A DNA stretch of 64,000 nt from Ulva prolifera (taxonomy: Eukaryota > Chlorophyta > Ulvophyceae > Ulvales > Ulvaceae): assembly GCA_023078555.1 (NCBI GenBank), contig CM041197.1, forward strand, positions 1,646,501 to 1,710,500. Direction: 5' to 3'. Below, piece after piece: positions 118 through 54,482 of the stretch. The translations under genes and the position numbers were made by a program. Under the pieces are notes generated by a model. The model did no database searches, was not told the DNA's origin, and saw only the letters and a list, made by a program, of their open reading frames with translations. Positions within the stretch are counted from its first letter, which is position 1; each line of letters opens with the position of its first letter.

Positions 118-3100
118 CTACACACCATAGGCGACCAGGGGGCAGATGGTGTCAGTGCCAGAGAGCTTTGTAAAAAGGGATGCCATCTCAGCGTCCGAGA
201 GCGCCCGCCAGAAGGCGGCGAGGTAGCGGATACTGCCGTCCATGCCCGTGAAGCCCTCGGCAGCCGGGCCGCCGCCGATGTAGGACTCAGTGACCACGAA
301 GTCCTCAAGTCCGCCGGCAGCGACAACCTGCATGGCAGCCCATGCATCATGCGGCACAGCATCTCCTGTGTCGCCTGCCGCTTGGTGGCAGCTGCTTTGC
401 GCAGGCCGATAGCGGCATCGGGCGGGGGAGCAGAGCACACGATGCCGTTTGGGCCCGGGGAAACTGATCCCAGGATTCTGTGAACGGCGCTTGACAGGGA
501 GGCGGTTCAGCGAGTTGAAGACTGATTCCCCAATCATGTGCACATGTGACAGGAGCTGAGGCATCAATCATTCCCAACCTGTAACTATGCATGCAGTCCA
601 ATACTCAGCATGCTGCAGTGATCATGGTCCGCACCAGCGAAGCTACGCTCGTCTGCGTGTCGTCAGCGCCCCCCAGCCACACCTCCATCTCTCCTGTCTC
701 CTTCACAAACCGCACGGCCGCCGTCAGCGCCGTCCCCAGCACCACCGCGCCGTCCGCCGACGCGGCCGTGAATACGCCCCCGCCGCCGGCCAGCTCCACC
801 CTGAACTCCAGCCGCTGTGCGGCTGTGGCAATCCGCACATGCATCGCGGCACCGGAGGCACCCTGAAGCAGCAGCATCTGCGCGTCCTCGCCACCGCTGG
901 GGAACGAGTCGAGGGTGAAGGTGAAGGCTGCAGAGAAGCCGGTGGAGGCGCGCAGAGGCGCATAGAGGGCGGGGTGGGCGAGCTGCATGTGCTTTGTGCC
1001 ACCAGCAAATGCAAGGGCGCCGTTGTTGCGCGTCGGCCACGCTGACGAATCGGCAGGGCGGGTGTACAGGGCGTTTGTGGCGCGGTCGCAGATGGCAGAG
1101 TCGATGCCGGACAGAAGTATGAGGACATCATTGTCTGCATGTGGCACCACCCATTGAGCTACGTCACGCCATGAGAATGCCGAAACAGATAGAAAATGTA
1201 AAGTAAATCTGAATTTACTGAGCCGCATCCTATTGGCCATTGACAACTCCGAATCAACGGGACCACATATGCCGAAGGGAAAACCACCTGGAAACTCCCC
1301 TCAGACGACCGCACGCAACTCACAGGGCCTCCTCCTGTGCTAAGCGAGGTGGTCATGCACGGCCGTTTCGATTCCCCGATGTGATCGATACACCCAATAC
1401 ACAGCTGAGTTATCAATATCCACATCGATCTATCTACGTAACAATGCATATATACAGCCACTTGGTTGAGAATGGAGTCCGGCCTCTGTACAGTAAAGTA
1501 AATCTGAATTTATCGGAGTCCGGCCTCTGCCCTTTATAAGAACATACAGCCATGAGAAGCCAATGTGAACCTGGACTCAAAGGTACGCCGATGAGGGTGC
1601 ACATCTGCAGTGCACACAGGTTCACACAGGCGAGAGGCAGCACTTCCCGCGCACGTGGGGTATGGCCAAGAGACATTTGTGTGGCACTGGATCAGGTAAG
1701 CCCGGCCTCCATGTTCTCGGGGCACTTGCAGGCGTTAAGCCGCAACAACAAGGCGCAGTGCTGGAGCACGCGGCTGCGTACGTTGGGGCAGGTGTGAGCG
1801 TTGCTGCTGAGGGCTGCTTTAGTGTGTTGCTCAGACTGTTCCGGCAGCTAAGACCGTCCCTGCCGACACTGCCTACCTCAACAACGGGCGACTGCGGCAA
1901 CCCAGTGAACACCCGTACATACTGCTGGCTTGCCACAGCGACTGTGACCACGCAACACTCACACACTGTTGCGTCACGGACAGTGGATCTCAGCACCGCG
2001 ACGGTGGGTGGGAGCGCACCTAGCCACATATCGGAGCAGGCAACCTCGTTGGACCGAATCTGGGACCCTCCGGAGGAGGTGGGCTGCAGCGCGGGGTGGT
2101 TTTCAGGCAGCGCCCGGGCCAGCAGGTACGCGTAGTTGATGTCGGCATCGAGCTCGTTTTTGGCCACAGAGGTGCTGATCCAGCCTCCAGTGAAGGTGTG
2201 GTCGGGCAGGCCACCATCGCTTGCGATCTGCAGCACACTGCCTGCTGTTGCTGCACTCGACGCAGATTGCTGCACTCGACGGCCGGTCCACAGTCGATTC
2301 GAAACCAGGTTTTGCTTGCTTCATTCTACATGTTAAACCTTCCGCATGTGGTGCCGTTCATTCGGAATTGGCAATGTCCTCTTCAGGATGCGGCTGAGTA
2401 AATCTAGAATTGCTTTACTTCACTTGGCGGTGATGCCAGTAATGCCAGTTTGTTGGTGGCTGACGCGCAACTCATCAGCCTCAGGCGCTGGACAAGTGAT
2501 CTGTGCGACTCGGCATGCTGAAGTTGCACCACAAATCAGTGTGTCCTGCAGCGCAAACAGCACCTTCGTGCACAACTACATCCGCAGCCTGCCCGTCCCA
2601 GCGTGTTTGTCCTCGCATGGCAGCAGCACAGGCACCCTGGACAAGCCCATTGTTACGTCACATGCCCCCAGGCATGAATCTGAAACATGCGAAGGGCAGC
2701 GAAGAAGCAGCAAGAACGCTCTGTGCACTTGTGTCCGGCCGCACGCTCTTAACAAGTGATTGTGCGAGCACCATTCAACGCAGTATAACCATGTTGCAAG
2801 TGTGGCAATGCATGGAGATGCAGTGAATGACGCACTGCCGTGCCGGCGTTGCCCTGCGGCACGCCGTCCACATAAATCTCCATCGTTGAGTCCGCGTGCT
2901 TGTAGCGGAAGGCCAGCATGAAGAGCACCCCCGGCACGACCGTGATTACGCCGGTACTCTCGTACGTCGTCGCGCCGAATGTATACGCAAAGCGTGGCCG
3001 CGTCGACGTCGGCATCGCCTCCTCCGACGGCAGAATGCTCGCTTCCAGCTGAAGCCCGCCCCCGCCGCGCAGCATGAACAGCTGCATCCGCGTCCCCGCT

Positions 3101-4482
3101 GCCGGGAACGCCCGCAGCCGGAGCATGAAGACCGCGGAGAAGCCGCCGGAGGTCGACAGGCCGAGGGTGAAGGGCCCCCGCGCCTCGAGGAACTGCGCGG
3201 GCTCGCCCTTGGTGAAGGTGAACGCGTCGCCGCCAGTGCCGGGGTGGTTGGTCGGGGAGGCCGGGAGCCGGAAGAGGGGGGGCTCGTGGCCGCAGATGCC
3301 GCCGTCGGGGCCGCTGAGCACAAACGCGGCATCGAGGGCGTTGTGGGCGGAGAGACCTGCGGGCCATGTGGGGGAGATTTTACCAGGCAATGAGAAGGCC
3401 GGGGGTGGCGTTGCGGCGTCGAGGTGTTGTGAGCGGGTGGCCGTGCTCATGGGCGCATGCGTGCGCCCCGAGATGCATGCTCGGGCCAATTTCGCACTGC
3501 CCAGATTGCGCTGCCAATGTCACAATGGATCTGGATGTGTAGCGCACATGCATGCTCGATAGATAGCAATCCTCCTGCTTGCAGGTAACAGCAAGGATCC
3601 ACCTCTCCTGGCGACTATCAGGGCATCTGCCAAGGTTGTCGGTCATAGGAGCGGAGGCGCACTCTGCACAAAGTGAGTGCGGTAGCCAAGGATGAACTTG
3701 TCCCCGGTGAAAGATGTGTCATACTCTGTGACAGCATCAACCTCGAGGGTGGTCTCATGTGGGCCAATGCAGCCCCCGGACACTATGGTCGCTGTGGCTG
3801 CAGTGCCGCTGGAGTACACATAAGAGCCGTCCGGCTGCCGGGCTGAGACAGAGTATGACCCCGAGACGATGTACTCCACGCATTGCATTGCATAGCTAGC
3901 TGTGGCCGTGAGTCTCACCTGCAAGATTTGAACAGCCTAATTAGCACTGGAGCTCGGCTAGTATCTGCAATTGGCTGGAGATGTTGTGGTCGTGAAACAG
4001 CACATGTTCGGCATGCACAGATGGGCTGTGTAGGCGCACTGATACTCTGATTGCGATGGTCTGGCCTGCAAATGCCGCTTCCATGGCTGCCTCATTGTCA
4101 TAGCCGCAGGTGAAGCCCATATCACCGCCCACCCACTGCCAAGCGGTCTTGCCGTGTCCAGAATCAGCACCTCTCACATGATCCCAGTTGTAGTAAAGGC
4201 AGTCTGGATTGTACGCGGTGTAATCCCTGGGGGTAGCTGCATTCACATGGGGAGTTGAGGCACACGATCCAGGCAGCCACCTTCAACGCCACGCAGCATT
4301 GACAAGTAGCCATGGGAGCGTACTCGCGGGGTGATCTCCAGCATATATCCATAGCTCCATCATGTGGGCCCAAGATGAGGTATCATCGGTGTCTGGGTCC
4401 AGTCCAACCTCATCAGCGGGGTAGTCCAGGTCCAGCAGCTTGCGTTGTGTTCCAGCGGGTAGCGGCGTACCCACCACACCAT
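118..4482 (-). CDS. Secreted or cell-surface protein with two laminin-G-like domains (5' end unresolved)
   Basis: Seven minus-strand exons join in frame: 4324-4482, 4046-4236, 3663-3918, 2836-3356, 2020-2227, 635-1134 and 118-327 (stop at 118-120). The first three encode a Cys- and Trp-containing extracellular-type region without a recognised family. The last four encode two concanavalin A/LamG-like beta-sandwich domains, each split over two exons. Landmarks are GFSAVFMLRLRAFP and MEIYVDGVPQG in the first, GFSAAFTFTLDSFP, GEMEVWLGG and SYIGGGPA in the second, and the closing helix motif RALSDAEMASLF. LamG domains bind carbohydrates or proteins, so a role in the wall, scales or adhesion is an inference. 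Introns hold copies of repeat R1. The model needs at least one more upstream exon ending in phase 1; no signal peptide was found. The domain call is fairly safe, the whole-gene extent is not. Confidence 0.7.
1198..1366 (+). repeat. R1 repeat, full-length copy, in a LamG-gene intron
   Basis: It begins GTAAAGTAAATC and ends near GGCCGT. Hairpin 1 is AGTAAAT (1202-1208), CTGA, ATTTACT (1213-1219). Hairpin 3 is CCG-AATCAA-CGG. It lies antisense to the host gene in intron 1135-2019. Confidence 0.92.
1474..1529 (+). repeat. 15-bp direct repeats around an R1 5'-end fragment
   Basis: GGAGTCCGGCCTCTG occurs at 1474-1488 and 1515-1529. Between them lie 26 bp containing AGTAAATCTGAATTTA, the first hairpin of R1. 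Confidence 0.8.
2341..2423 (-). repeat. R1 repeat, 5' half, in a LamG-gene intron
   Basis: Minus-strand copy with hairpin 1 AGTAAA..TTTACT (longer loop), hairpin 2 TCCT-GAAG-AGGA and hairpin 3 CCG-AATGAA-CGG. It lies in intron 2228-2835 in the sense orientation of the host gene. Confidence 0.85.
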
Positions 4483-6338
4483 CTGAACACGAGCAAGCGT
4501 GTCATAATAAACGAGACTTCACAAACATACAACTGCGCGATAACCGCATCAGAAACGCCACCAGCGACGACGATGAGTGAATGGTACCTGAAGCCCTCGC
4601 CAAGGTCCACCTGGGTGTGGCATGACATTGAATCAGGCCGAGCCAGGCAATGACAATGTTTACAAGTGGTTGGCGCGCAGCATGCGACAATTGCTTGAGC
4701 ACGCGGACTGTGCGTTCACGCAACACTGCCCGTGGCATCATGCTTAACGGAGGCATGATGCACGATAGGCTTCCAACGAGGACATCATGTAGTCACGAAT
4801 GGTTGATACGAATGCAGGGCTGTACTATAGCTGAGCCCCGCATCATGTCCGCGTTGCATCAGCATCGGCGCGGACACGATTGGGCAGTTGACCCGGGTCA
4901 CGGATCGACCTAGAATCACAGCTGCCCCTTCGAGCATATCCATGTAGACACTAGAAAGCTGTAATATCATGCCGTGTTACACTGTGTTGCTTAGCCAGCA
5001 GCATCCGCGCCAACTACCGGAAGCGTACGCAGAGCATGTAAACATCAGTGCGCAGATCGACATGTCGCGGTTTGCTGTCGCTTGGCCAAGTTGCGCTAAG
5101 AACGACCTCTGCTCACCTGAACCTCCTCGGAATGACCGATCTAATGTTTGTGGTCACACTGGTGTTACTCGGGGAAGCGGCATCTACGCATCAATCCCGG
5201 GTCAAGCTTGTCAACGGGCCGTAGACTTCACCATCGATGTGCTGCACTACCTGTGCCCACAGCTTGGCCATCTTGCGCTCCGCACGGTGAATTCTTGTGA
5301 TATTCTGACTCTGTGTTCCGCAGCTCTTGTGCCTTGTGAATACACTGCACGGCAGATGGGACATCTCGCGCAACATAGCTGAGAATACGCACTGCTGCTG
5401 TGCATGGCAGACACAGCGTCCACATTGGCACCACAGCAAGTCGTATTCCACCCTACAAAGCAAATTAGATCACAGGCATAGTACTCTGGTCACCCACATG
5501 CCAGGGCACACAAACTGTGCTCAGTCCAAAAGCCTCCCCACCCTGGCACACAGAAGCACCAGTCATCGCAGCTGTACATAGTGTGGACACTCCTTCTGGT
5601 TTCAGATCAACGACTCGTCATTGTCCCCATGGACCTGGCTGAATATGCCATCACGCGTGAACCAAGCACATGTGGGCCAGGCATCCTCTGGCAATGCATT
5701 GGCGAATTGGCCTGGCAATGCATTCTGCATCTGGTACAGCTGGAGGCTCCAGCAGCAAATTATATCCTCAAATCGATCAATGTAGAGTACTGTGACCATT
5801 GCCACCCACACACTTCGGCCTGATTGGGGACGCAATAAGTTTGACAGCCCAATCAAAGAGCATCGAGTACTTCTCAATGTGTGCGATTGTGAGGACATTT
5901 GTCAGTTGAGCCTTATATGTGTCCAAGCCTATCCACTTGAAGCATCCGCAGCGTTTCCACTTGAACCATCCACATCGAGGACGGTGCCCACATGAATCGA
6001 CCAGATCAGCCTAAGCACCTTGATTGAACGATCGGAATGCCAAGCAGTCCTTCAAACGGTCAGCTTTCACACCAATACAGTTGAGCTAATTTGGCCTGTT
6101 GTGTTCATCCATAGTGGCGTGACCTCTGTGGACAGCATCAAACACACATGCCCGATGGTGTGGATTCCAGAGCTGCCACTCATATATCTACTCTGATCAT
6201 GTCGTCTACCAGTGGTCCGCAGACAAGTACAAACATCAAGTCCAACACTACAGGTACCTCTTGAGTCGTGTGGACGACCCGCTGCCATTGGTAAGCAGCT
6301 GTATCATTGGAAACTCGTCACAACGCCAATGCTCTCCA
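4483..6338. other. Spacer, possibly holding upstream exons of the LamG gene
   Basis: No gene could be closed here. Three minus-strand stretches read like protein and may be 5' exons of the LamG-like gene: about 4590-4612 (frame with VDLGEGF after a CCCAG acceptor), about 5250-5400 (frame with KMAKLWAQ before a GTAGTG donor) and about 5630-5730 (frame with WPTCAWFTRDG, after an ATGCAG acceptor). None could be joined in phase to the exon at 4482, so they stay candidates. The 3' UTR of CFAP52 must lie at the high-coordinate end. Confidence 0.3.
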
Positions 6339-9300: not shown

Positions 9301-9912
9301 GCATGGCATACCTTGTCCAGCTGTGATAATTCTCGTGCTATCTTTGTTGAGGAACTTGACGCAGTCGACAAATTTGTTATTTGCAGGAGATCCACAAACA
9401 GCTTCACCAGATAGAACATCCCAAAGCACAAGAGAACCATCATCAGGGCCACCCAAGGATGCAAGTTTCAATTCATCGTGGCTGAAAGCTAGCGCTTGCA
9501 CCATAACCTTGTGTAGTTTCAGTTTCTTATGAATTTGTTTTGTCTCTAGATCCCATATCATAATATCAGCTGTGAAACCCATGAAAGTCTTCTGACCGGA
9601 GGCGAGGTAACGTCCCGATCTTGACAGAGCGATACATGAAACCTGCACAGAAATATTGACGTTTAAGACACGGCACTATTGGGAATGTGCTGCTGTGACA
9701 GATGTCTGGCAGGTCGGTTGAGCGTTGAAGTTTCACACCTCATGGCTGTGCCCTCGCAAGAACTGCTGATTGCCTGCGTCCTTCTTACTTCGGAGAACTA
9801 CTGTCGATCCCAGGGGATAAATGACCGTGTCCCCATCAGGATGTACAACGAGACCATTTGTGACCGTGCCACTAAAGCCGATGACAGCAGTTAAAGGCAG
9901 TATCTCTGCCAT
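6339..9912 (-). CDS. CFAP52: Cilia- and flagella-associated protein 52 (WD40 repeats)
   Basis: Eight exons: 9739-9912, 9312-9642, 8914-9218, 8247-8507, 7794-8087, 7424-7642, 7182-7343 and 6339-6509. They give 638 codons in one open frame; human CFAP52 (WDR16) is about 620 residues. The match runs the full length: AVIGFSGTVTNGLVVHPDG at the start, ASGQKTFMGFTADIMIWD, LASLGGPDDGSLVLWD, ISGWSDGKIRAF, CIIWDLV, TTGTDRKIAYWDAYDG, and VSVGSEGGIFIWKY at the end. The product is two WD40 beta-propellers in tandem. Known family role: an inner-junction protein of axonemal doublet microtubules in motile cilia, in the lumen of the B-tubule. The start ATG (9910-9912) is the only in-frame one before the first conserved block. 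Seven introns, all GT-AG. It is transcribed divergently from SPAG16. No missing blade was noticed. Confidence 0.95.
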
Positions 9913-21419: not shown

Positions 21420-24136
21420 ATGCCCTGCACACCTCACCGCACCCATGTAAGTCCGGCAGTTTTTGCCGAACAGCCCACCAACATGGTGCCGCTCTGCGTG
21501 CTCGTGCATTCCGGGCCTCCATGGCCGCGCTCTAGATCTCAAGCCCCACCGCAGACTCCCTCAGGCCTCTCATGCGTGCGCAGGTGCTGATGGTGTCCCC
21601 GACGGCCTTCGGCTTCAACGAGCAAACCGCGCAAGACAACCACTTCATGCATGAGAGCGCCGACACCGGCGGCGCGTCCGTCGCGCAGCAGGTCGTGCGC
21701 GAGTTCGCTGCGCTGCACCACCAGCTCTCGGAGGTCCACGGTGCGCAGCACAGCACGCTGCGCGTGCGCATCGGCACCCGCCGCTGTTGCGCATGAGCGG
21801 CGGACCGGTGATGCTGGCCAAAGCCTCCGCCCGCGCTCGTCGCCAGCTGCATCATGTCTGAGTGCAGCTACCATCTTCGGATTGCAGCTTTTGATGCAAG
21901 GCCTAGTAGTTTGATTTGGTGCTCTGCCATGCAACGTCCAGAGTCCTTGTAGTTTTATTTCCCAGACCACCACCCTTTACGTGAATGCAGCCGGTATGGT
22001 TGTCACCCGGCCTGGCCCCTCAACCCCCGCGCATCTACGCAGCCTCGCCCATTCACCGTCCCTGATGCATGCATCAGCTGCATGCATGTGCGCAGGGGTG
22101 CAAGTGAACGTGATGGAGCACTCGCTCGCACACGGCACGCCGGACGCCGTCTTCCCGAACAACTGGTTCTCGACGCACAGCGCGCACGAGGCGCACGGCG
22201 CGACGCGCGAAGACACACTCGTGCTCTACCCCATGAAGTGCCCCAACCGCGCCGCAGAGCGCCGCCCGGAGCTTGTCGACTTTGTCGCGGCGCGTGGGTA
22301 CCCCAAACGCGTCGACCTCTCTGGCCTGGAGGCGCGGAACGACCAGTACTTTGAGGGCACGGGCGTGCTCGTGCTGGACCGCGTGAACGGAGTCGCATAC
22401 GTGTCGATGTCGGAGCGGGCGGATCGCGCCGTCGCGGAGCGGTGCGCCACCGCCACCCGCCCTCCTGGCCTCCCCAACCCTCTCGTCTGTGGCCGCATGT
22501 ACGCTTGCAGATCCCCATCGGTGCAGGCTCCCCGCAGCGCTTGTCGTCTCAACACACCTCTTCGGTGCACCCTCCAAGCTGCGTACTCCCCGCATCAAGC
22601 TGCAGTGTTCATGCATGTGGCTCATGCATATGGTGCATGCAGGTGGGTGGAGGCACTGGGGTACAAGGAGCTTGTGACGTTCTCAACCGTCGACACGCAG
22701 CGGCTGCCGGTGTACCACACGAACGTCATGATGGCCGTCGGCTCCGGCGTCGCAATCGTCTGCGGCGAGAGCATCCCCGACGATAAGGAGCGCCAGCACC
22801 TCTTTGTGCGACCCCCCTCTGCCCCCCCCCCCCCCCCCCCGCGGACTACTGTAGTATGGATCTTCAGATCGCTGACTCTGGATGCATTGCCTGGTAGTGT
22901 GCATGGGTACTCTGCTGTATAATTGTCAACATTTCTGTCCTTGTTCCCCTCCACCGAACGCCCTCCTCTGCCCCTCTACACTGTCGTATGGATACCTTTT
23001 TTGGTCACGGAGGTTGGTGGTGTTTGTCCCAATGGACGTGGCTAGCTCAATATGCGCACATACATGCATACACTGTACTCCCACCAGCAAGTGCATTCCG
23101 AGCAACGGCTTACTGCCCGGCCTCTGTCCTTTGTAACTACATGCATGCACTATGCTTCCACCAGTGGCAGCACCGCCGCCACTGGCTACCACATCTGAAA
23201 GCCCCGGATTTAGCACCTTCCCCCTCCGCAGTATTGCGAGCGCAGCCCTCGTCTTGTGAGTGCATGTGCGAACGCCGTCACTTCTGGGCTGTGGATTGTC
23301 AGGCAATGGAACTGGTGGAGTGGCACTGCCCCGCCCCCAGTGACGTGTTGCACCTGTCACTGTCCAAACATCATATAACTCGGCTTCAGCGCATCCACAT
23401 GCATGGCACGCATGCGCAGGGGTGAGGCAGCCACCGGTGTCCCTGCTCGCACCGTCCCGCACTGAGGCCCTTGGTGCGAGGGATTGAAAGCGCTCGCCCT
23501 CATGCATGCCGCAGACAGAACCTGGACATGGGCGTGACAGGCATGGTCGCAACACATTCGCGCCTGGTCGCATGATCTGACGTCTCGCCATGCCCCACCC
23601 GCATGCGCGCTGCACTGACGCTCCCTCGTTTGGGACCACCTGTCATGCCGGTGTGGCGTATCTTGTGCTAGCTCACCTCGAAGAGTATCAATGCGCACCC
23701 CAGTGCGTCTGGGACATCATGTTCGTCCCCATGCGTGACTACGCATGCGGAGCTGCTGCTCTTGTTCATGCTGAGCACACTATTCTGTGTTGCTACCTCG
23801 CCTCTCGCCGGTGCCCTTATGACGTATGTCTCGTGCCGACCGCTGTGTGCTGATGCCGTTGAGTGGCCGCTGCTGCAGGCGACGCTGGGGCGGACGCACG
23901 AGATCGTGGACATCACTGCGGCGCAGATGGGCAGCATGTGCGGCAACGCGCTCGAGCTGCTCGACGGCCGCGGCCTGCCGATCATGGCGATGTCGTCGCA
24001 GGCGGCCGCCGCCCTGCGCGACGAGCAGCGCGCTGCCATCCTCCGCCACTGCGCCGCCATCGCGCACGCGCCGGTGGACACGATCGAGCGCATCGGCGGC
24101 GGCAGCGTGCGCTGCATGCTCGCTGAGCTGTTCTAG
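21420..24136 (+). CDS. ctlX: CtlX-type citrulline/arginine hydrolase (amidinotransferase fold)
   Basis: Five exons: 21420-21446, 21584-21740, 22096-22441, 22643-22805 and 23879-24136, 316 residues; bacterial CtlX proteins are about 300. Conserved blocks in order: VLMVSPTAFGFNEQTAQDN, DAVFPNNWFSTH, LYPMKCPNRAAERRPE, YFEGTGVLVLDR, YHTNVMMAVGSGVAIVCGES, CGNALELLDGRGLPIMAMSS and GGGSVRCMLAELF. The fold is the guanidine-modifying superfamily (arginine deiminase, amidinotransferase). The likely catalytic set is the Asp/Asn block near DAVFPNN, the His in YHTNVMM and the Cys in the C-terminal RCMLAEL (about Cys310). The exact substrate is not settled in eukaryotes. The ATG at 21420 gives a nine-residue first exon before a textbook GTAAGT donor; no transit peptide is seen. 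The last intron (1073 bp) opens with a C tract. The last six codons are copied in tandem after the stop. Confidence 0.88.
22822..22840 (+). repeat. Poly(C) tract, 19 bp, just inside the last ctlX intron
   Basis: A 19-C run starts 16 bases after the GTGCGA donor of the fourth intron, after a shorter C-rich lead. See the finding on C tracts next to 5' splice sites. Confidence 0.95.
23106..23146 (+). repeat. R4 repeat (also at 1513-1552 and 54018-54060)
   Basis: The shared pattern is G(C/T)CCGG(C/G)CTCTG followed by (C/T)CC(T/A)TT, a variable gap and ACAT(G/A)CA. Three copies were seen. The one at 1513 directly abuts an R1 fragment. Confidence 0.5.
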
Positions 24137-29050: not shown

Positions 29051-29083
<33 letters not shown>

Positions 29084-31242: not shown

Positions 31243-31429
31243 CTGCGGCTGACAATTAGTGGATTGAGCATAATGGCTGACAAAGATGCAGTGTTGTGCT
31301 GGATGCAGCACGTTGCCTGTAATGTACATTGATTGCATTGATTTGGCAGCGCTGGAGATGTCAATGCAAAGTGCGTGTGCATGCCAAAGACTGGCCTGCG
31401 GCGGTGTGTAGCTTGGTTGTCTCTCTTGG

Positions 31430-31482
31430 TCCCAGATTTTGGAGTTGCCAATGTCCAACCGCATATGGAAACGGCAAGTAGT
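31430..31482 (-). repeat. R1 repeat fragment (hairpins 2-3 only)
   Basis: Minus-strand match to the core of R1: TTGGACATTGGCAACTCC. The third hairpin is present with a changed stem, CCA/TGG in place of CCG/CGG. Confidence 0.75.
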
Positions 31483-32105
31483 GGACACATACAACTGTGA
31501 ATCCTTATGCTTTCATCCATACATTCATAGACTTCGGGCGTGTCTCGACGGCCCCTCAGGCATCCCGATAAGGCCTCACGCATTTGGTGAATCACCAGTG
31601 GTGATGTGTATGTATGTTGCATGTGGCTCTGCATGGTTACATAGTATATGCTTCCATCGCTGACAGTACACGTGTCTCCCTATGAAGTAAGCATTTGCTG
31701 ATCATATTGCTCATTTCGCATAATCACTGATGTATTCCTGGCAGTCACTTGAGTGCAGGATTGAGCAGCCGCTGCGACATGTGATGTAGTGTCGCAACAT
31801 TTCGACTGCGAGTCGGGTGTACTGCACTATCAGGAAGTGGTGGACATTCCAATCCAACTGCTTCTCAACCAATACACAATGGCAATAAAGCAAAGAAAGG
31901 GTATTGCCATGAGCCTCTCTACTGCCACTTTACACAAAATTTAAGCACCTCTGCGCCTGCAGCACTGGCAAGTAACTGTGCTTAAAGTCACCAACAAATC
32001 CGCTGCTTTGCACATCATTGCAAGATCTGGCTCAACTTCAGTGCCACCTGCGTCACACGCCACATTGGGTAATGGTTGTGGTGGTAATGCAATGATATGT
32101 TTGGA

Positions 32106-32168
32106 ATCCAGTGATGTGGCCACCATACCACTGGTATGCCGGTCATATCACTGGAGTGCCACAACGGT
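32106..32168 (+). repeat. R2 repeat, foldback form
   Basis: TCCAGTGATGTGG at one end and CATATCACTGGA at the other form an imperfect inverted repeat around a second small palindrome (ATACCA..TGGTAT). It is followed by GTGCCACAA, the R2 signature. Confidence 0.65.
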
Positions 32169-37980: not shown

Positions 37981-38245
37981 GTAAGCGCACGGCACCGCAG
38001 GAGGCGAGGCGGCGGCGCGGCAGAGGCCCCTGGCTGCCTCCGGCCCCTCCTCCCGGCGGCCACACCTCCTCTCGGCAACCGCGCACATCACACATTACAC
38101 CATCAGTACACCATCAGTCCACATCATTTGCAACACACAGCCACACGAGCGCTTCTACTTCGATCGTGCATGATGCCCCTTGAAGCCTTGTCCGAGGTCG
38201 GGCCTGGACGCTAAACGCGGCACCGGGGTGGTGCGGCAACCCATT

Positions 38246-38285
38246 CACATGGCCGCTACAGCACTGGATTGCCACAGGTGGCCAC
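38246..38285 (+). repeat. R2 repeat
   Basis: ATGGCCGCTACAGCACTGG followed by ATTGCCACAGG matches the R2 core found at 41383 and elsewhere. Confidence 0.6.
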
Positions 38286-39370: not shown

Positions 39371-39540
39371 CGGTGATGTGAAGCAGAGTAAAGTGAATCT
39401 GGAAAATCTTCGCCGTAACCTCAGAGGGACAGTGACAGCTTCGAACAATGCACGAGTTCGCTTGATCAGGACGGAGGACGACGGCATGCTGCAGGGGTAG
39501 ACCACCTGGAAACCCCCTCAGACAAGCGAACGCAACTGAT
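39371..39540 (+). repeat. R1 repeat, divergent full-length copy
   Basis: The 3' half is clear (ACCACCTGGAAACCCCCTCA then AACGCAACT). The 5' half (AGAGTAAAGTGAATCTGG) has diverged and its hairpins are weak. Confidence 0.7.
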
Positions 39541-40541: not shown

Positions 40542-40710
40542 AACTGGCTCTATCAGATGTCTGTGAGTGTCAAGCAAGCAGCAACAAGTTCAGACCACCA
40601 AAGCCACACAATCAGGGTGCCACAGCAGCCTAGGCGGTCAGAGGGCCTGTGTTGGCTGGCCATGCAAGGCCTTGCCACCTGCCACTTCTGGACAGGGTTT
40701 GATGTGCAAG

Positions 40711-40763
40711 GGTCCAGTGGTGTACCAGTCATGTGACTGGATTGCCACAGTGGATTGCCACAG
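40711..40763 (+). repeat. R2 repeat with internal inverted repeat
   Basis: GGTCCAGTGGTG, then CCAGTCA/TGACTGG arms around two bases, then ATTGCCACAG twice in tandem. Confidence 0.65.
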
Positions 40764-41382
40764 GGCGATGTTCTGTGTGGAGTGCATGGAGAGTGTGTCG
40801 ACAAGGCCGATATTGGTCAGGCGGGTAGCACCGCCAGGACAGCGAAACAGATCAGTCGCTTCAACACCACAGCCAAAAGCGGACGCAGGCACAGTGGATA
40901 TTGTGTGTGGAGTGTGAAGTGACAGCGGGTGCTTCGTGTGCAGTTTCCGTGACTGTGTTGAAAGGACAAAGCCGGAGCGGCAGGTAGCACCACGACCGCA
41001 TGACCTGAACAAGGGCACCACACACGCAAGCGGATCTCTCCTTGTTTCACTGTTGATGGTGACAATGTGTTGTAGTTTGGGCTTGTGCTCTGCCATACAA
41101 TAGCCCGAGATGGTGTAATTGTCTCGCACGTGCGAGCGGCTGCGCCGGCGACCAACTCAGACCGGCTCAGACCGACACGGACACTGGCACAGTTCTTGCG
41201 GCACTGACGCTGTTGCTGTGCCTGCGATGCATGCGGTGCCTCAGGCACTACATGCCTCTCCGGTTGCGTCCTTAATAGGTGGCAGGCTATGTGGGGTGGC
41301 AGGCGTGCCATTCGGCAAGCAGCCACAGCCAGACGACTCTGTGACAAGCTCACAGATACAATGCCAAGCAGCAGCTGTGGCG

Positions 41383-41421
41383 ATCCAGTAATATGGCCGC
41401 TACACCACTGAATTGCCACAG
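41383..41421 (+). repeat. R2 repeat
   Basis: TCCAGTAATATGGCCGCTAC, CACTGAATTGCCACAG. It sits 15 bp upstream of the R1 copy at 41436. Confidence 0.65.
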
Positions 41422-41435
41422 AAGCAATGGGGTGG

Positions 41436-41615
41436 GTAAAGTAAAGTAAAGTAAATCTGAATTTACTGAGCCGTATCCTATTGGACATTGACAACTCCGA
41501 ATCAACGGGACTACATATGCCGAAGGGGTAAACCACCTGGAAACCCCCCTCAGACGACCGTACGCAACTCACAGGGCCTCCTCCTGTGCTAAGCGAGGTG
41601 ATCACGTACGGCCGT
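41436..41615 (+). repeat. R1 repeat, full-length copy
   Basis: It is near-identical to the copy at 1198-1366 over about 165 bp. The 5' end carries GTAAA repeated three to four times, then the hairpin AGTAAAT-CTGA-ATTTACT. The 3' end is GCTAAGCGAGGTG(A/G)TCA then GGCCGT. Confidence 0.92.
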
Positions 41616-42850
41616 GGGTCCTCTGAGATCTGAGGCTAGGTCTTAGGCTGATCAGGCTGATCATAGCAGCTCACAGAGACAATGTCGCGACAAGACGCCA
41701 TAACTTGCGCTAGGTCAATGAGTTGCTGCCCTCAAGCCGCTCGATGGTCTGACCGACCGAGTAACAACAAGTGAGGAGAACAGCAGCTGAGGGTGGTGAG
41801 GTGTATGAGTCACACAGGCGGGTCTCATGCTGGTTTCAGGTGTCAAGTGTGGGTTTCAAGGGGAAACCTGGGAAGGCAAGCCTGCAGGCGGTGAAGGCAG
41901 CTTGACGGCACACATCTCAAGCTACCCTGCAACCTCAAGATCACAGCTTATATAGATTTCTGTGCAGCAAGCTGACAAGCAGGGTGAGCTGGTAAGATCG
42001 CTGCTAAGACATGGCCAGCAGAACCAAAGTTACTTGACTCTAGTGCATTGAATTCTGTGCTGCTAGGAACTGCTTGGTACATCCAAAGTTGCTCTACTTT
42101 GCTGCGATGAGCAGCACTATCAGCAATGCCAATAGTGAAGCACACTTGTGTAGAGCTAGGACCCTTGTGGCACACAGGCGTGGTACAAGGTCAAGTCTGA
42201 GAGGCAGGCAGCAGTGAATTCAAGTGAATTCAATTCTTAAGCAGGCACCACACAGGTGTGTGATTGGACCTCATGGACAGAGGCACCTAGCCATACACAA
42301 GCACACCAACCTGCTGACCGCTGTAGAAGGTGAAGGTGGCATTGTGTGTCTGCTTGCTGTAGTATGCAAGCATTGGCTATCCTGCAGACCAATGCAGTGG
42401 CACAAGCATGCATATCTCACAGTCCGACATGTGCACCCATGCAGGGCAAGCCCCCAGGCAGGCTGTAAGTTGCAGTAAGGCACTAACATCATGGACACCT
42501 GTTTCGTGTGTGCAACCTGTCTGCCAGGCAGATGCTGCTGCACCCCCTGTGTGTGTGACACAAGGTGCACACTTGGGATGAGATGATCTGCATGCATATA
42601 TAGCACACAAAAGCCTGCACTTGACTACTCCCACATGACTATCACATGCATGCAGGCTCTGCACCCAATGCATGTGAAGTATGCCATATCCTCTTGGCAG
42701 GATGCCTCATCCACACACCCCAGATGGTGGTGGGAGGGGAAAGAGCATGACTGTTGGCCCACATGTGTGATATTGAGGTTCCATGAGCTCCTGCTCCCTG
42801 TGGGGCAAGAGCATGAGCATGGCTGCTGATGTGAGAGCCGATGGTGCGGG

Positions 42851-42892
42851 GCAGTCCAGTGATATGACGGCTACACTGGTGCACTTCCACAC
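42851..42892 (+). repeat. R2 repeat
   Basis: GCAGTCCAGTGATATGACGG then CTACACTGGTGCACTTCCAC matches R2. Confidence 0.6.
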
Positions 42893-43327
42893 ACAGCAAG
42901 CCCTGTGATGGCTCTGGTGATTTGTCTGCAGAGAGGCCTGCAAAGGTGGCCCGCTTCCAGGGTGTAGTGCAGGCAGGTGCATTAGTAGCTGGCAGCACAC
43001 TAATATTGGCTGAGCTCATCACTTCATGTGCAGCGCAGAGTCCACAGACATGAGGTGGGGGTGTGCGGCACCATGCCAGTCACATAACACATGTACACCA
43101 CAGGACCAACACACTTTGTTGTTGATTGGTTTGCATGTTGGTCTGCATGCTGCCAAGTCGTTGTTCGGTTTGTATGCTGCCATATTGGCTCTTCAGGCAT
43201 GATGCTGTGCTCAGTGAAGAAAGGCACATGAAGAAGGTGTGGACTGGTGATGCGCCTGGACAGATTTCGGCCAGCAGATCGAGGCACTGGTGAGATCCAG
43301 TGCCTATTCCAGCGTGCGGCCCTGCTA

Positions 43328-43352
43328 GCAGGGCACACACACACACACACAC
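43328..43352 (+). repeat. CA microsatellite
   Basis: An uninterrupted CA run is followed by CGCTCACA. A second, related sequence (CACACACGCTCACACGCTCACA) lies near 43436. Confidence 0.85.
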
Positions 43353-43983
43353 GCTCACAGATGCGCCTGATAGATTTTGGCCAGCAGATCACGTCCTGGT
43401 GAGGTGCTGTGCCTATTCCATCCAGCGTGCGCAAACACACACGCTCACACGCTCACAGCTGATGGTGCGTCGGTGTGGCCCTGCCAGGGACCACAGTCTG
43501 TGTGGTTCAAGGACACAACCAGCGAGGCAGGCAGCGCCGCAGGCCACAGAGGCCCCACACACCGGCTCAACCACCGACACGCAAAACAGGCTGTGTGTCT
43601 CCGCTGGTGACGTCTTTGTGCGGTCGAGTGGGGTGCGTTTCTGCGGCGCCGGAGCGGCTGCGGCGCCTCAGGGTTACCCTACTGTCGCTTGCAGTGCCAG
43701 TGTAGCCGGCCGCTGCACGCGGCACGGTGCCTACCCGTGTCTCTGTGAATCAAGGACAGAACACCTGTCCTTGATACACACGCACGCGCGCACGCTGTTG
43801 ACCCGTATGACTTGTTGCGTTGCCGCCTGCGGTGCCCCAGCTCCCACGTGTGTGCATGCACCCGCCTTAACCTCCAGCAACGCAACCGCCCCTCCTCTAC
43901 GCAGCAGTCGCTCGACTAGCCTGAAGCGTCCCGAATCAACCACATGCATGCCTGCCGTGCCGCCTCCCGCTATCACATGGCAT

Positions 43984-44063
43984 ATGTAGTCCCGTGCATC
44001 CGGAGTTGTCAGTTTCCTCTTCAGGAAACGGCTCGGTAAACTCAGATTGGCTTTACTTTACAT
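43984..44063 (-). repeat. R1 repeat, 5' half
   Basis: Minus-strand copy. Hairpin 2 has its longest stem here (TTTCCT-GAAG-AGGAAA). The copy overlaps the end of the hypothetical gene at 44042-46490 and supplies its last codons and stop. Confidence 0.88.
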
Positions 44064-48029: not shown

Positions 48030-49110
48030 ATTATGCTATTCATTGACCAGATGCTCCGGCAGAGGCGCCACGTCGTACGCGTACGTATGTAATCGGCCGT
48101 GTACGACAATGAGGCCCGGCTGCAATTCTCAAATCGCTCCGGGCGATGCCCAGGTTGCTGCGGCGGCTGCTGTACATGTGTTCGGCCCGACTAGGATTCT
48201 ATACCTGCATGCTGCAGGGCCAGGCCATCGAGCTGTACCACGTCGCACGCGTACGCCACGTCGTACGCGTACGCTAGCACGCGGCTGCAGCCACCGGCCA
48301 CTCAGGAGCGGCGCGCGGACTGCATGAGCGTGATGTTATGACACTGTATGGACTTACAAACAACAGAAGCCGGGCATGCTACCGTTCCTCGGAACGCATG
48401 CATGACTCTGTTCTCTCAAAGGTATAGATGACCAGGGTACCCTGGTCACCGGTGCCGGCCGGTCGCTCATGCGGCACACGACAACGTCAACGAGCTAGCT
48501 ATAGCCCGCACCATGTGCCATGCACTACAGCTACGGTGAGCGGCCTCAATGTTGCCGGAGAATGTGCTCACATACCTTTCGGTACCTCGAGATCAGCTTC
48601 ACACGCATCACTATCGATGGGGGTCATGAGCAGTAGCACTCTGAGCCTCATGAGATCAGATGTTGATCAGATGTTTCGCTTCGCGCTCCCGCCGGCGTGC
48701 TGACCGGGCCTCTCTGGTGTCTGAACACCGTGCGTGAGGCGGGGGATTGCGGTGCTGTGCGGTGATATCATACATCGATGTATATGTACCTGCCCCCGAC
48801 CGCGCAGCGATATCACATATGTGTGTATACGTGCACGTGCTGGCGGGGATACGTAGGCACAGCATAACAGATGACGTCGACGTACATGCTGTATGCGTCT
48901 TGAATGCGGATTCGAGGGCTGCGGGTAAGGCCAGGAGCTGGGTACACGTACGCTAGAGCTATATATAGCAGCTGGGCAGCTGGGCAGTGGTAACGGCGGC
49001 CTCCCGTCACCCGGATCATAAGCGGATGACAGTCTCGCCCTCGGCGCACGCGCACCTATAGCCAGCTCCCCCGGGAACCCCCACCGCGGTGCTCCAGGTC
49101 CACACCACGC
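48030..49110. other. Palindrome-rich island of unusual oligonucleotide make-up
   Basis: It is dense in self-complementary words: a perfect 20-bp palindrome at 48429-48448 (TGACCAGGGTACCCTGGTCA), ATACATCGATGTAT at 48770-48783, GCTATATATAGC at 48958-48969, and repeated GTACGCGTACG near 48074, 48247 and 48264. CpG and TpA steps are common. Neighbouring spacers are not like this. No coding frame was recognised. Confidence 0.55.
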
Positions 49111-50726
49111 GACCCCACCACTGTCTCTGTATGCATATACGTTATAACGGAAAGTGGCTGTGTCACACAACAGCAGCCGCCTCAGGCCGGCGGGAGCGTC
49201 GTGGACGCGGTCGGCGCACGGTCGAGGAAGTTGCATTGCTCTCTGCGGTCGGATTGCGCGCCATACAACTGGGTGCCCTTGGATGTCGCAGCAAGGCAGA
49301 GCTACCGTTGGTCATGGAGCAGCTGCGGTTATAGTGGTGGTGAGAAGGGATACGCTGCTCACCTCACTTGACGCTGTCAACATGAGAGGCACATCAGCTG
49401 CACCGCAACCTCACGAAGCTTCGCTGTCCATACACGTGCAGCATGCCCAGAACGTTGGGCATTCCCGTCAGGCCCTCGAGTTCAGTTGGTCTGCCTAGGG
49501 CTTCGAGCTGATCAGATGAGCTGGGCCCGTTGCTGTGAGCCAGTCAGGACACTGGCATCGAGAAAATAGTTCATTGTAACTGCTTGCCTGCGCATGGCGT
49601 GGACGATGTTGCGCTGTGGTCTGCCCGTATCTCTGGTTTACGAGCTCTGGTTGCGTGTGGTAGAATCTGCCCATGCCGTTCGAGGCCGATGCTCGAGTAC
49701 ATGCCTAGATTGCCGTCACAACAGTTGTAGTCTTTTGTGTCGCGTGATGAGTCGAGCTTGATGCTGATTCTCTAGTCAAGCGCGTCACGATGTCCAACAT
49801 CTGGCGCTGAGAAACGGGGCGCTCTTGATGACACCACGGATGCAAGAGCCTAGAGCTGACACACGGCATACATGTGCCTGTCCTGTAGCTGCAATGCGAA
49901 GCTGTTGACGTCTAACCACGAGGCACCAACACTAAACGGAGAGGTCCGACGCAGCTCCGGTCCGAGCGTGAGCTCCAGCACGATCGGCCTATAATCCGGC
50001 CGCAGCTGAAGCCGGTCCATTTCGGCTGCCTCCCATCAGCATTCATTGCTTTGGCGAGCGAGGCATGGCCCACGTCGCTTGCTAGACACAACCACACACC
50101 ACACCAGAGTGCAATGAAGCTGCGTAGCTGTGTTTTGAACAACATGAAGCAGGAGGGCATAGCGTTTGTTGCTGGCATGAGGATGGTTCTTTCACCGCGC
50201 TGCAGCGACGAGTCCTGTAGTCCCTCTTTGAAGCCCAAACCAACCAGATCAGTATGGCCTATGCCAGTGCCATGTGTCGTTGCAATCAGTGGCACTTACG
50301 CGGCATCCGACTGTTACTCTCCTTCACTGTAGAGGACTTACTGGTTCTGTATGATGCGGCCCAACAACCCAACACTACTGTTTGTGGAGAGCATGCGACC
50401 GCTGTTGTCCGCACGGTCAATGCATGGGCTGTGTCAGCTCGGTGAGTACGATTGTGACAGAACCGGCATGCTTGGTTTGCGTCTGTGTGTCACAATCCCA
50501 CATAGTGTAGATAGATAGCAGCGTAGACAGGGCTGTGCCACAAACCATCGCCCGAATAGTTCAACAATGCCCCCAAAAGCAGAACAATGCCGATCCACCC
50601 AGTCACTCTGAAAAATCCCAACAACAGCACCCCCAAGCCCACCACCAGGTGCCCTCACACAATCATCACCATAAACACGACCACCAACTCGAACGCCTTG
50701 CAGCGATAGGGCTGTGTGTTACAGGC

Positions 50727-50757
50727 TCAAAGCCGGAGGGGCCTGTAGCACCGCCAG
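50727..50757 (+). repeat. R3 repeat (also near 40822-40845 and 40966-40995)
   Basis: The shared words are CAAAGCCGGAG(G/C)GGC and GTAGCACC(G/A)C(C/G)A. The copies at 40822 and 40966 lie 140 bp apart; this one is 10 kb away. Confidence 0.5.
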
Positions 50758-52778
50758 GATAATGAGGAATTACACGGACAACCCAGAGCACGCGCGTCAG
50801 GAGAGCGGCAGCCACCCCGGATCCGACCGAAGTCAGGGCCAAGTCACAGCAAGCTAACCCCTGACCCCGCCACAGCCCGACAGGAACCCACTGAACACGC
50901 ACCCGTACACCCGTACACCACACCCACGCACCCGCAGGGCTGTGTGTGGAAAAGTAGTACACCCTTTTTGTGTCTGCTGCCGTGCATGCTCAGCGCGTGG
51001 CCCTCCCTGGCCCGTCCGGTGCCCATTTTATGGCCTCGGCTCGCAGGGATAACCTCTGCATCTGGCCGCTAAGTCGCTGCGGCTGTGGCTGCAGCTGTGG
51101 AGCTTGGTGCGGCGCTAGGGCAGCGTCTGAGGTTGCTGCTGCATGATGCACCAGGCAGTGCACAGGCAGCGTCGCATCTGCCATGGGTCAACATCCAGCC
51201 GCCAAGCAAGCAACCAAAAAACACCATATCCCAGAAAATCATCTGCCATGGGTCAACATGGGCCACACACTGGTGTCATACCGATGTGGCAGCTGCAGCT
51301 AATGTACTTGATGAATTCAGGGGTTGACAATCATCACTTTCACCATTGGACCTTGTCTCCTTAGGCGATGCCGCGGAGGATGTGTCAGCAGTCACCTGCT
51401 CCACAGGGATGTGTTGCAAGGATAACGGGAACTTCACAGGGGTGTAGCTGTTGAGCATCTCTCTCGCCGGGCCACTCTCTCTGGACTGACCAGCTCCAGA
51501 AGGCACACACGGCATGCGCAGCTGTGGAGGTGTGCCAGTATTACAGAGACCAAGACGAGGAGGCAGCTCGTGTGCGACAAACTGCTGATGTTGATGGCAA
51601 GCAAACAGGGGATGCAGTGCAACCGCAGCGTCAGGTTGATTATGCCAACCCAGGACCAAGATGCTGCCGATGCCACAGAGGTGCCTCGGACGAAGAACCT
51701 GCGGCCACCAGCAAGTAAGGCATGGCGATGTGATTGATTTCATCAGATTGATTTCCATGCCTTGCTTTCTACTCTTTCCACTCATGGTATGCCTGATGAG
51801 CCACGGGTGGATGCTGCAAGAGAGTAGCCAGGCCAGGGCATGTGGCCGCATGCTGTCAACGGAAAGCTACAGTGATGTCCTTGCACGGCGACAGCAAGCG
51901 AGGTCGCTTATGAGCTGCACACACATGTGTCACATGACAAATGTGGCAGCATGGATCCCTGGAGACGCAAGTAATTCCTGCATGGGACAGCGAAATTGTG
52001 GAAGAACACAGACACATTGAACGGCATCGTGCATTCGACACAGGTCCACATCAAAGCCATGGGACATGAACGTGCACAGCACGAAGGCATGGCTGCGATC
52101 AGGCCACATGGGCAGGCCACATGGGGCAGGCAGTGGGTGAAGCTGTAGTGGGTGAAGCTGCACGTGGTGGGGCCCGACTTGTTCAACCAGTCCGCCTCCG
52201 GGTGGGTAGACGATGCAGACTCAGAAAAGCGAAATCTGGATTCTGACTCAGTAAGCAAGCCTGGGAGTAAATCTGAACCTGACTCAGTGACCAAGCCTAG
52301 GTCTACCATCCATGATGCATTGCATGCGACACCCCTTTCTTTCAGTCTTGAGGCGGCCTACTGTGCTGGCAATGCTCGCAGTAATGCGATTGGCGATCTC
52401 CGGTCGGGCAGTAGTTGCTGTACAGGGGCGCAGGCGAGGAGGCAGGTTGCACAGCAAGAGCAGCAAGCAGGACGTGTGCTTGTACAACCACTGTTTCACC
52501 GGCTCGGACACGGCACACAGAGCAGCAATATGCAGCAGGGCTTCAGCAATTGATTAATCTAGATAGAGTTTTCGCACACCCCCCTGCGTGCTACACCATA
52601 TGGCTTCGTGGAGTGCAGGCCCCGTCACTTCGAGCTGACCTGATTCAATGAATAACATTGATCCATGTGCCCTGGCAGCTGCATCAGGTGCACGGGAATC
52701 ACTGTATGCACAAGCACGTTGAACAGTTCCGCAGGACCCGCGCTGCTGCCCGCTTCACCGCCCTTGCCCTTGCAGCAC

Positions 52779-52860
52779 AGTAAAGCAAAGTAAACTTAGA
52801 TTTCCTGAGCCGTATCCTGAAGAGGACATTGACAGCTCCGAATTATCGGGACCATATGTC
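52779..52860 (+). repeat. R1 repeat, 5' half
   Basis: All three hairpin segments can be seen. Hairpin 2 is TCCT-GAAG-AGGA and hairpin 3 is CCGA-ATTA-TCGG; hairpin 1 has one mismatch. Confidence 0.85.
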
Positions 52861-52994
52861 GAGTCTCGCTGTGTGTCCGCTGTGTTGTGCCAGATTGATG
52901 ACCCTGCTCTTAAGCTTGAACCGTGCGGTGCAACCAGCCTCTCCGGTATTGACCTGGTAACAGGGTGGCGGCATGTCTCTTGGACGCCTCTTCC

Positions 52995-53042
52995 GGTCCC
53001 GGACCTCGGAGTTGTCAATGTCCAACTGGATATGGCTCAGGC
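52995..53042 (-). repeat. R1 repeat fragment, inverted relative to its neighbour
   Basis: The minus strand reads GAGCCATATCC, AGTTGGACATTGACAACTCC and a third hairpin CCG-AGGTC-CGG. It lies 134 bp from the plus copy at 52779-52860, so the two can pair as a long inverted repeat. Confidence 0.75.
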
Positions 53043-53399
53043 GATATATGCGCATGCACATAGACAGGGCAAGTGATGAATTGCCGACTCATGTCGGGGA
53101 ACTGGACTTGGCGCCACAATGCCATTGAGAAATAATGGCGCCAGATCGGTTCCCACGCATGTGTGGCATGCACGCGCATCCTGCGCACAGCGGCATTCGT
53201 CTGTGCGCACGGACGGTGTGTGGACACCTCGCGCAGGCCCATGCTGGCCCGCCTCGCCCGCCTGCCCCTCGTCCGCCGCTGCCTGCCTCCCAGCTGCGGG
53301 CCCTTCGCGTGCGGCAGCGTCGCCCGGCCGCGCGCGCGGCTGCGGCGCAGGCGCCGGAGGCTGCTCCAGCCGCCGTTTCCGATGCTGTGCGCAACGCCC

Positions 53400-53950
53400 A
53401 TGTGGGGGGACCCGCGCCGGACGCGGCGCCGGCTGCGGCGCCAGTGGCGGCGGGGGTGCGAGGTGGCCAGGGTGCGGCGGGGTCTGGGGAGCAGGCCACT
53501 GCCGCGCAAGAGGAGGGGCTCGAGAACGTGCTCACGGCAATGGCCCAGGAGAAGGTGCGGGACATCATGTTTGTGCCGCCTGATGACCATTTGTGCACAG
53601 GGGATGGGTCGGTTGTGAGCCCCTGTGCGGGTACCTATTGCAGCGTGGCGGCTCGGGAGGAAGGGGGTGCTGCGGTGGTGCGGGATGCGCAGAAACGCAC
53701 CGCATATCGGGCGTACGACCCGGATGCATATGCTTTTGTGCCGTTGTCGCATGAAACACGCGGTAGGTTGGGGCGGCCTGCTATGGCGCTGTTGAATCGG
53801 CTGGCGGAGGTTGCGTCTTGGTGTGGTGTGGTGGGCCGTGGTGTGTTTGTGACGAATGCTTTGCGCCGATTGAGTGCAGCACTGTGAAAAGGGAATGCTT
53901 ATGTGCGCCGTGCGGGGCTTCCATCTTCGGCATGTATCACCACCAGGGCT
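53400..53950 (+). mobile_element. Non-LTR-type retroelement remnant (C-terminal end of the RT polyprotein)
   Basis: The translated frame carries YAFVPLSHETRGRLGRPAM, then a helical LLNRLAEVASW and ALRRLSAAL. This resembles the conserved C-terminal segment (FVP-VETYGRLG..., LR-LSVAL) of reverse-transcriptase polyproteins of LINE-like elements in algal genomes. The reverse transcriptase core itself is not recognisable upstream, where Ala/Arg-rich sequence begins around 53230. The piece looks broken and 5'-truncated. LINE origin is likely but rests on this short domain alone. Confidence 0.5.
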
Positions 53951-54448
53951 GTAGTATACACTCGTGCCCGGCCAGGTGTAATGAAGGAGTGAGTGGGTTT
54001 TCGAGTGGATCCGAGAACCAGCTTCATGCCCGGGCTCTGTCCATTGTGGCTACATACAGGGCAAGTTCACGATCTCGCATTTCGGACTTGTCCCCATCGG
54101 CTCGGCTGTGAAGTCATGCAGACAAACATGCATGATGGCACACCACGCACGTTGAGGCATGCCCAGCGGCCATTGCTGTGGCCACAGGGACCGGAGTCTT
54201 CCAGGGGCCACAGGGACCGGAATCATCAGGCTGCTGTTTACAGTTGCCCAGTGGTGCATGTTCTACGATCCCGCAGCAACAGCTTGCATCTGCATCACAA
54301 AGCCCTGCAAACAGGGTGTGCTTAGCACACAGACGATTCAGGATCATGCCAGGCCCGACGTCGAGCAGCGGCCATCGATCGATGTCCAGTGCGCACACCC
54401 CACACCCCACACCCCACCACGGCCTCTCAGTTCAGAGGGACATGGAGT

Positions 54449-54482
54449 AGTACAGCAAAGTAACTCTGATGTTACTGAGCCC
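54449..54482 (+). repeat. R1 repeat fragment with re-paired first hairpin
   Basis: AGTAAC-TCTGAT-GTTACT (54459-54476) keeps a six-pair stem although both arms differ from the usual AGTAAAT/ATTTACT. GAGCC follows, then similarity ends. Confidence 0.75.

Follow-up and report, generated by a model that had tools for sequence, protein, structure and literature searches.

A short interspersed element with a LINE-like 3′ end in the green alga Ulva prolifera

Introduction

What kind of element is the short, hairpin-bearing repeat that recurs in a stretch of the genome of Ulva prolifera (Chlorophyta; Ulvophyceae)? The stretch analyzed here, which we call the window, comprises 64,000 nucleotides of assembly GCA_023078555.1 (contig CM041197.1, forward strand; C2:1646501-1710500 in our contig numbering). 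A preliminary description, made from the letters of the window alone, listed nine copies or fragments of one repeat, placed three small stem-loops in a segment of about 75 nt at its 5′ end, and read paired changes in the stems as a sign of a folded RNA. Searching the whole genome (88.9 Mb in 44 contigs), we find that the scattered repeat is a real dispersed family, far above chance, and that it is a short interspersed element (SINE): a 264-nt retroposon with an A-box/B-box head, a body and a (TTTAC)n tail. Taken as a whole, the evidence makes it very probable that this SINE carries the tail of a long interspersed element (LINE) and is mobilised by the LINE machinery of the same genome.

Results

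Full-length copies elsewhere in the genome carry a promoter-like head

When the window piece at 41430-41620 was compared with the genome, the best 40 of 1,890 candidates were 97–100% identical to it and had two nearly common end points. Extension of the flanks past the end of the window copy in the matched loci added a further ~90 nt, a head with GGTCCAATGGG and GGTTCGATTC that is wholly or nearly wholly missing from the window copies. Read on the sense strand, the 264 nt thus run from the A/B-box head through the body to the 3′ end GTGGTCCCGTTAATTCGGAGTTGTCAATGTCCAATAGGATACGGCTCAGTAAATTCAGATTTACT and the (TTTAC)n tail. The A box lies at position 1 without a mismatch to RGYNNARNGG and the B box at position 57 with one mismatch to GGTTCGANTCC, strings that we take to be the consensus sequences of the two boxes. 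An A- and B-box pair at tRNA-like spacing (20–65 nt) arose in only 1 of 5,000 dinucleotide shuffles. Such an internal head would drive transcription by RNA polymerase III (Pol III), and the expected transcript of ~264 nt would start at GGTCCAATGG.

The window copies lack this head because they are 5′-truncated. The earlier remark that the repeat has no clear B box therefore holds for those copies and fails for the full-length ones outside the window, and the statement that it fits no SINE has to be abandoned, as full-length copies carry both boxes, resemble a LINE at the 3′ end and close with a short tandem-repeat tail. Likewise, the segment of about 75 nt is the 3′ end of the element, where the copies are anchored; its assignment to the 5′ part had reversed the orientation, and the truncated side is the opposite one. 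That a second half is found in only some copies was correctly seen, and 5′ truncation explains it.

The family is numerous. An 18-nt tail core, with up to two mismatches, has 1,886 sites in the genome, LINE ends included, versus 6 for the reversed pattern, and the 24-nt head has 426 sites versus none for a control pattern. Identity to the majority sequence is at least 98% in 27 of 40 full-length copies (lowest 84%), and part of the family is therefore recent, although these copies were mostly fetched as best matches and are biased to young ones. In one locus (L015), the SINE copy has an extra partial head copy just upstream; a second head match lies at C3:5624204.

Target-site duplications mostly start within the tail

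After removal of duplicates, which cost the copy at locus L141, our set of 149 copies was reduced to 144, and 120 of these reached the tail, were at least 60 nt long and had sufficient flank for a duplication test. Exact duplications of at least 6 nt were found at the expected place in 34 of the 120, against a mean of 4.5 and a maximum of 11 when flanks were shuffled among copies in 300 trials. The longest measures 9 nt. Fifteen reach at least 7 nt, and nine of these start 2–3 nt inside the tail, in AC or TAC. A LINE endonuclease/reverse transcriptase would bind the SINE 3′ end and then nick the target; the freed target 3′ end, ...GT, would pair with the AC of (TTTAC)n and prime cDNA synthesis, which would explain short duplications that start in the AC or TAC of the tail.

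An arm upstream of the tail is complementary to the element's own tail repeat, AGTAAA/TTTAC in the SINE and TATGTA/CATA in the LINE. Matches as long occurred in 1,421 (SINE), 584 (LINE-A) and 3,943 (LINE-B) of 20,000 shuffles, with arms that had been chosen after inspection, and the complementarity is suggestive only. A hairpin between upstream arm and tail repeat may set the 3′-end register for priming.

The 3′ end is shared with a LINE of the same genome

The LINE-type endonuclease (PF14529) was located at 25 places, 11 of them in frames of 1,574 amino acids (aa) and one in a frame of 1,577 aa. The LINE at locus L091, here LINE-A, has Exo_endo_phos and RVT_1 domains in a frame of 1,574 aa, its reverse transcriptase region matches those of R2 and L1, and its 3′ end is GGTCCCGGATTTCGGAGTTGTCAATGTCCAAATGGATACGGCTATGTAATCATG(CATA)n. 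When L091 and L092 alone were searched, the SINE shared 44 nt with the LINE-A 3′ end at 88.6% identity (E 1e-9); the ~44 homologous nucleotides lie within the final ~75 nt of the SINE and near the 3′ end of the stretch common to L091 and L092, and the stop codon TAA of the LINE frame falls inside them. With the last 260 aa of the LINE as query, a protein search gave 154 matches with E ≤ 1. In 20 fetched loci with a LINE C-terminus, mostly divergent, the LINE end scores at least 35 in 19 and the SINE end in 15 (LINE strand), a threshold without its own control at these loci; L103 reaches this score with neither end. By eye, most of the 20 loci carry CATA-type repeats. The direct partner of the SINE may be LINE-A or an unsampled relative.

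Other sources of the tail were considered and rejected. The 3′ end of LINE-B differs. Long terminal repeat (LTR) elements were also dismissed: the 3′ regions beside six PF00078 matches (L065-L070, from a search in which 150 of 452 candidates were scored) have no convincing tail match, and two tested loci among the six carry RNase H and integrase domains.

Some further arrangements of the LINEs were seen. The SINE copy at L096 is on the strand opposite to a LINE remnant. A LINE-A 3′ end directly followed by a 5′-truncated LINE-B was found at window 52967-54058 and at L091:3936-7001, and LINE-B likewise follows in L092 and L093; the junction may have arisen when LINE-B inserted into a LINE-A at its CATA tail.

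Truncated copies recur at the base of a predicted hairpin

For the length distribution we used a sample chosen solely by the 3′ palindrome, with a perfect AGTAAAT/ATTTACT required and hence biased to young copies. It covers 45 of 50 listed places in 44 loci, all on contig C1, 43 of which kept a copy. The 46 tail-reaching copies obtained comprise 12 of 252–264 nt, 13 of 79–85 nt and 21 others that span 27–205 nt. The five places outside the sample include L017, L018 and two with a listed head; at least four of the five are full length, so the full-length share is understated, and the test of the short peak is unaffected because it uses truncated copies only. Three full-length SINE loci on C1 (L140, L141 and L142) are 92–99.9% alike across whole loci, which points to segmental duplication and not to independent insertions; one insertion may therefore be represented twice among the 12 full-length copies.

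The 34 copies shorter than full length have a fixed 3′ end and a variable 5′ end. Thirteen of them end inside one 7-nt window, versus a maximum of 9 in 20,000 simulated runs with evenly drawn truncation points. This short class starts at about consensus 181–185, and none of the 230 local 34-nt windows of the SINE RNA is predicted to be more stable than positions 152–185 (−17.0 kcal/mol). The start of the short class thus coincides with the 3′ base of a predicted hairpin, and we therefore place a preferred stop there from position. cDNA synthesis would often stop early; moving in from the 3′ end, a reverse transcriptase would run into the stem at its 3′ base and leave copies of 79–85 nt. We read the recurrent ends as reverse transcriptase stopping at hairpin 152–185, on the strength of this positional coincidence and the folding model. 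A single longer element upstream of the short copies was rejected, as 29 such copies (28 distinct) have no flank common to the set; three pairs share 20–37 nt, a duplicate aside.

The same lack of a common upstream flank would fit copies that are a separate minimal retroposon: a small RNA of 82–83 nt with little beyond the LINE tail, transcribed on its own beside the 264-nt SINE and mobilised in trans. Alongside such an RNA, the hairpin between upstream arm and tail repeat in SINE and LINE may set the 3′ register. The 5′ end is sharp, the short class makes up 13 of the 46 tail-selected copies, and duplications of at least 6 nt are present in 11 of 44 short copies. Among these 44, 11 of which come from loci picked for short extent (L116-L127), 26 best match the young loop type and 18 the older type. 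If such an RNA exists, it would rank among the smallest mobile RNAs, a LINE tail plus its own 5′ end, and would have persisted beside the 264-nt SINE while sequence types turned over at least once. We nevertheless think it improbable: no new RNA is needed to account for an end that falls at the base of the strongest local hairpin, the short-copy ends scatter over several nucleotides, and the sequence types of the short copies also occur in full-length copies.

The predicted fold is common to SINE and LINE ends

When each end is folded by itself, the SINE end is predicted to form a bulged hairpin, GAGUUGU-CAAU-GUCC/GGAU-ACGGCUC, with 7 + 4 pairs, and next to it a tail-proximal hairpin of 7 pairs; the LINE end is predicted to form 6 + 4 pairs and 5 pairs, respectively. 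The GGAUA next to the Ulva stem resembles the loop of UnaL2; the string is absent from the text of the paper on the zebrafish element ZfL2. Over its full length, the SINE is more stably folded than its shuffles (z −2.74). The three short palindromes of the preliminary description are present in the copies. Of the predicted fold, that description captured the tail-proximal hairpin and the inner part of the bulged one and missed the outer stem, and its CCG/CGG stem has only 2 pairs in the SINE-end fold and is missing from the full-element fold. This predicted layout, common to both ends, is a better argument for a structured tail than covariation. It sustains the idea of descent through a folded RNA to the extent that the 3′ end of the source RNA is predicted to fold like that of the LINE; the covariation argument for that idea is faint.

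Covariation was scored in 84 distinct copies out of 117 sequences. In the three listed stems there are 5 two-sided changes in 1,169 cells, each in one sequence, and all five covariation measures were reached by only 1–3 of 500 shuffles (mean for two-sided cells 1.0), but relatedness among copies alone can push covariation above shuffles. With the partners slid by 1–3 columns, 2–6 pairs have two-sided changes versus 5 at register 0, and further pair types number 7–17 versus 16; the covariation score is 0.064 at register 0 versus 0.009–0.052 when slid, and paired cells are also highest at register 0. The structure that includes the outer stem gives 3 two-sided cells, a count that 22 of 500 shuffles reach, and for the 84-copy alignment RNAalifold returns no predicted pair. 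The earlier claim of clear covariation is accordingly right about the existence of the stems and of five two-sided changes above shuffles, and goes too far in view of the similar slid registers and the RNAalifold result.

Could the hairpins have been preserved because the copies have a function of their own as RNA, perhaps as a dispersed regulatory RNA, in line with the preliminary description? The five two-sided changes do keep their pairs and lie above shuffles in 497–499 of 500 trials, with the covariation score at its highest in register 0. We hold this to be very unlikely, however, because each change stands in one sequence and slid registers give similar counts, because the score of the outer-stem structure is ordinary and was equalled by 131 of 500 shuffles, because ~5% of stem cells are unpaired, and because the two strands hold similar numbers of tail-core sites (955 and 931). 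A fold is sufficiently explained if a LINE makes use of the source RNA. An origin of the repeat as the end of a DNA transposon, a miniature inverted-repeat transposable element (MITE) or a Helitron has next to nothing in its favor beyond the terminal 18 nt, which are near-palindromic. The preliminary description was right that terminal inverted repeats are absent: the first 30 nt and the reversed last 30 nt score 8, a value that 1,819 of 2,000 shuffles reach. One end is fixed and the other variable, the tail is a tandem repeat that the duplications overlap, and the 3′ end is homologous to that of a LINE. A known Rfam family was also rejected, with no window match at gathering score, and no exact match to the core pattern of the hairpin was found in viral or prokaryotic sequence collections.

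Copies and neighboring repeats in the window

A repeat is present at all nine places of the preliminary description, most of which also cluster together in a repeat search of the window, but they are not all of one family: those at 31430 and 52995 are LINE 3′ ends and the rest are SINE copies or fragments (Table 1). By blastn, seven of the nine match the 264-nt element, with an additional match at 1488; the place at 39371 is matched via the element body and that at 31430 via LINE sequence. Both LINE ends keep the LINE reading frame, with VPDFGVANVQ at 31430 and VPDLGVVNVQ at 52995 versus VPDFGVVNVQ in the LINE, and the CCA/TGG stem variant at 31432 falls inside LINE coding sequence. The weakest copy, at 54449, scores 39 versus 33 for the 99% point of random 61-nt window pieces. 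The best copy has a 6-nt flank match, ACCCAC, that overlaps the element ends.

Apart from these, the window holds an isolated LINE-B 3′ end, a tandem repeat and a second repeat family, MITE-like, with inverted ends CTGTGGCAATCCAGTG ... CACTGGATTGCCACAG, of which 18 exact end 15-mers were found in the 351 kb examined. Elsewhere in the assembly, a light-harvesting gene (L148) is of the chlorophyll a/b type; a Euglena polyprotein (entry 9vfj) is its best match when domain scores are summed, and chains named chlorophyll a-b binding protein give the highest scores for the whole domain.

Table 1. Repeat features of the window (positions counted from its first letter).
Feature	Position	Strand	Remarks
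SINE copy	1195..1377	-	5′-truncated at consensus position 79; 94.6% identity over blastn match
SINE tail fragment	1488..1522	-	final ~35 nt; outside the nine listed copies
Short SINE 3′-end copy	2338..2423	+	88 nt from 3′ end; 84% identity
LINE-A 3′ end, decayed, not SINE	31397..31493	+	82% over 62 nt, E 2e-8; LINE frame reads WLSLLVPDFGVANVQPHMET
Diverged SINE copy	39382..39537	-	body 39486-39537, tail region 39382-39421
Best SINE copy of the window	41441..41615	-	5′-truncated at consensus position 90; 98.3% identity
Short SINE 3′-end copy	43979..44061	+	83 nt; 87% identity
Short SINE 3′-end copy	52780..52862	-	85 nt; 87% identity
LINE-A 3′ end, not SINE	52967..53037	+	87% over 71 nt to L091 LINE; reads SWTPLPVPDLGVVNVQLDMA
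LINE-B fragment, decayed	53075..54058	+	directly 3′ of LINE-A end; 79% over 262 and 738 nt
SINE tail fragment	54450..54481	-	32-nt alignment with AGTAAC/GTTACT; weakest copy
LINE-B 3′ end, isolated	23091-23146	+	91% over 56 nt
MITE-like repeat, ~46 nt	38232-38277, 41376-41421, 1893-1938, 32119-32164, 42847-42892, near 40736
Tandem repeat	43249-43457		110-nt unit, 1.9 copies

Discussion

The Ulva family has A and B boxes at tRNA-like spacing, target-site duplications and the form of a short, many-copy element that is anchored at its 3′ end and truncated at its 5′ end, all of which identify a SINE; its 3′ end is homologous to that of a LINE in the same genome. It appears to be a new example of a LINE-tailed SINE, in which mobilisation in trans by the LINE and transcription by Pol III would be expected. 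We found no description of the family in a search of the full-text literature, a search that Repbase and Dfam lie outside.

Several results weigh against this interpretation. The head of one locus is unmatched by the Rfam tRNA model at E up to 10, and ARAGORN recognised a tRNA in none of 11 loci; we therefore use the label SINE without a claim of tRNA descent, regarding the head as probably of Pol III type and its descent from a tRNA as unproven. No exact duplication of at least 6 nt was found in 86 of the 120 copies tested, and the 86-nt 3′ end folds no better than shuffles (z −0.70). By eye, the exact SINE end was seen on the LINE strand in none of the 20 fetched LINE C-terminus loci. The terminal repeat unit differs as well, (TTTAC)n in the SINE versus (CATA)n in the LINE, which counts against LINE-A as the exact partner and not against the class of LINE-tailed SINEs. 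Covariation among the copies is a faint signal, above shuffles without clearly exceeding the slid registers. Copies that are dead should decay with no compensatory change; the faintness is thus unsurprising and does not speak against a folded source RNA.

One of the closest parallels by description comes from another green-lineage alga. SINEX-1 to SINEX-6 of Chlamydomonas reinhardtii are tabulated with RandI/Dualen or L1-1_CR as partners (PMC3747384). There too, the SINE 3′ end resembles a LINE 3′ end (~80 nt in SINEX-3) and closes with short tandem repeats, for example (ATT)n or (CTTT)n, and some of the elements are listed with a tRNA promoter (PMC3747384). In a comparison by description rather than by sequence, Ulva differs in its (TTTAC)n tail, in the (CATA)n end of its LINE and in the LINE stop codon inside the shared segment. 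A conserved LINE/SINE 3′ end of ~45 nt with a stem-loop is also described for ZmSINE2 and ZmSINE3 with LINE1-1_ZM in maize and sorghum, where compensatory changes are reported (PMC3747384), whereas they are faint in the Ulva family. A 3′ tail common to LINE and SINE likewise characterises the stringent-type pairs of eel UnaL2 and zebrafish ZfL2 (PMC4176376). In ZfL2, binding of the tail stem-loop by the ORF2 protein is reported (PMC4176376); the Ulva hairpin carries a CAAU bulge, and its LINE would bind it by analogy.

A 64-kb window with truncated copies only can hide the promoter of a SINE. Two questions follow from the family: does a hairpin within the template RNA determine the point at which a LINE reverse transcriptase breaks off, and is the register of priming set by pairing of the tail repeat with an upstream arm? 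With the Ulva family, a further SINE/LINE pair from the green lineage joins the algal pairs listed in PMC3747384, which are those of Chlamydomonas only.

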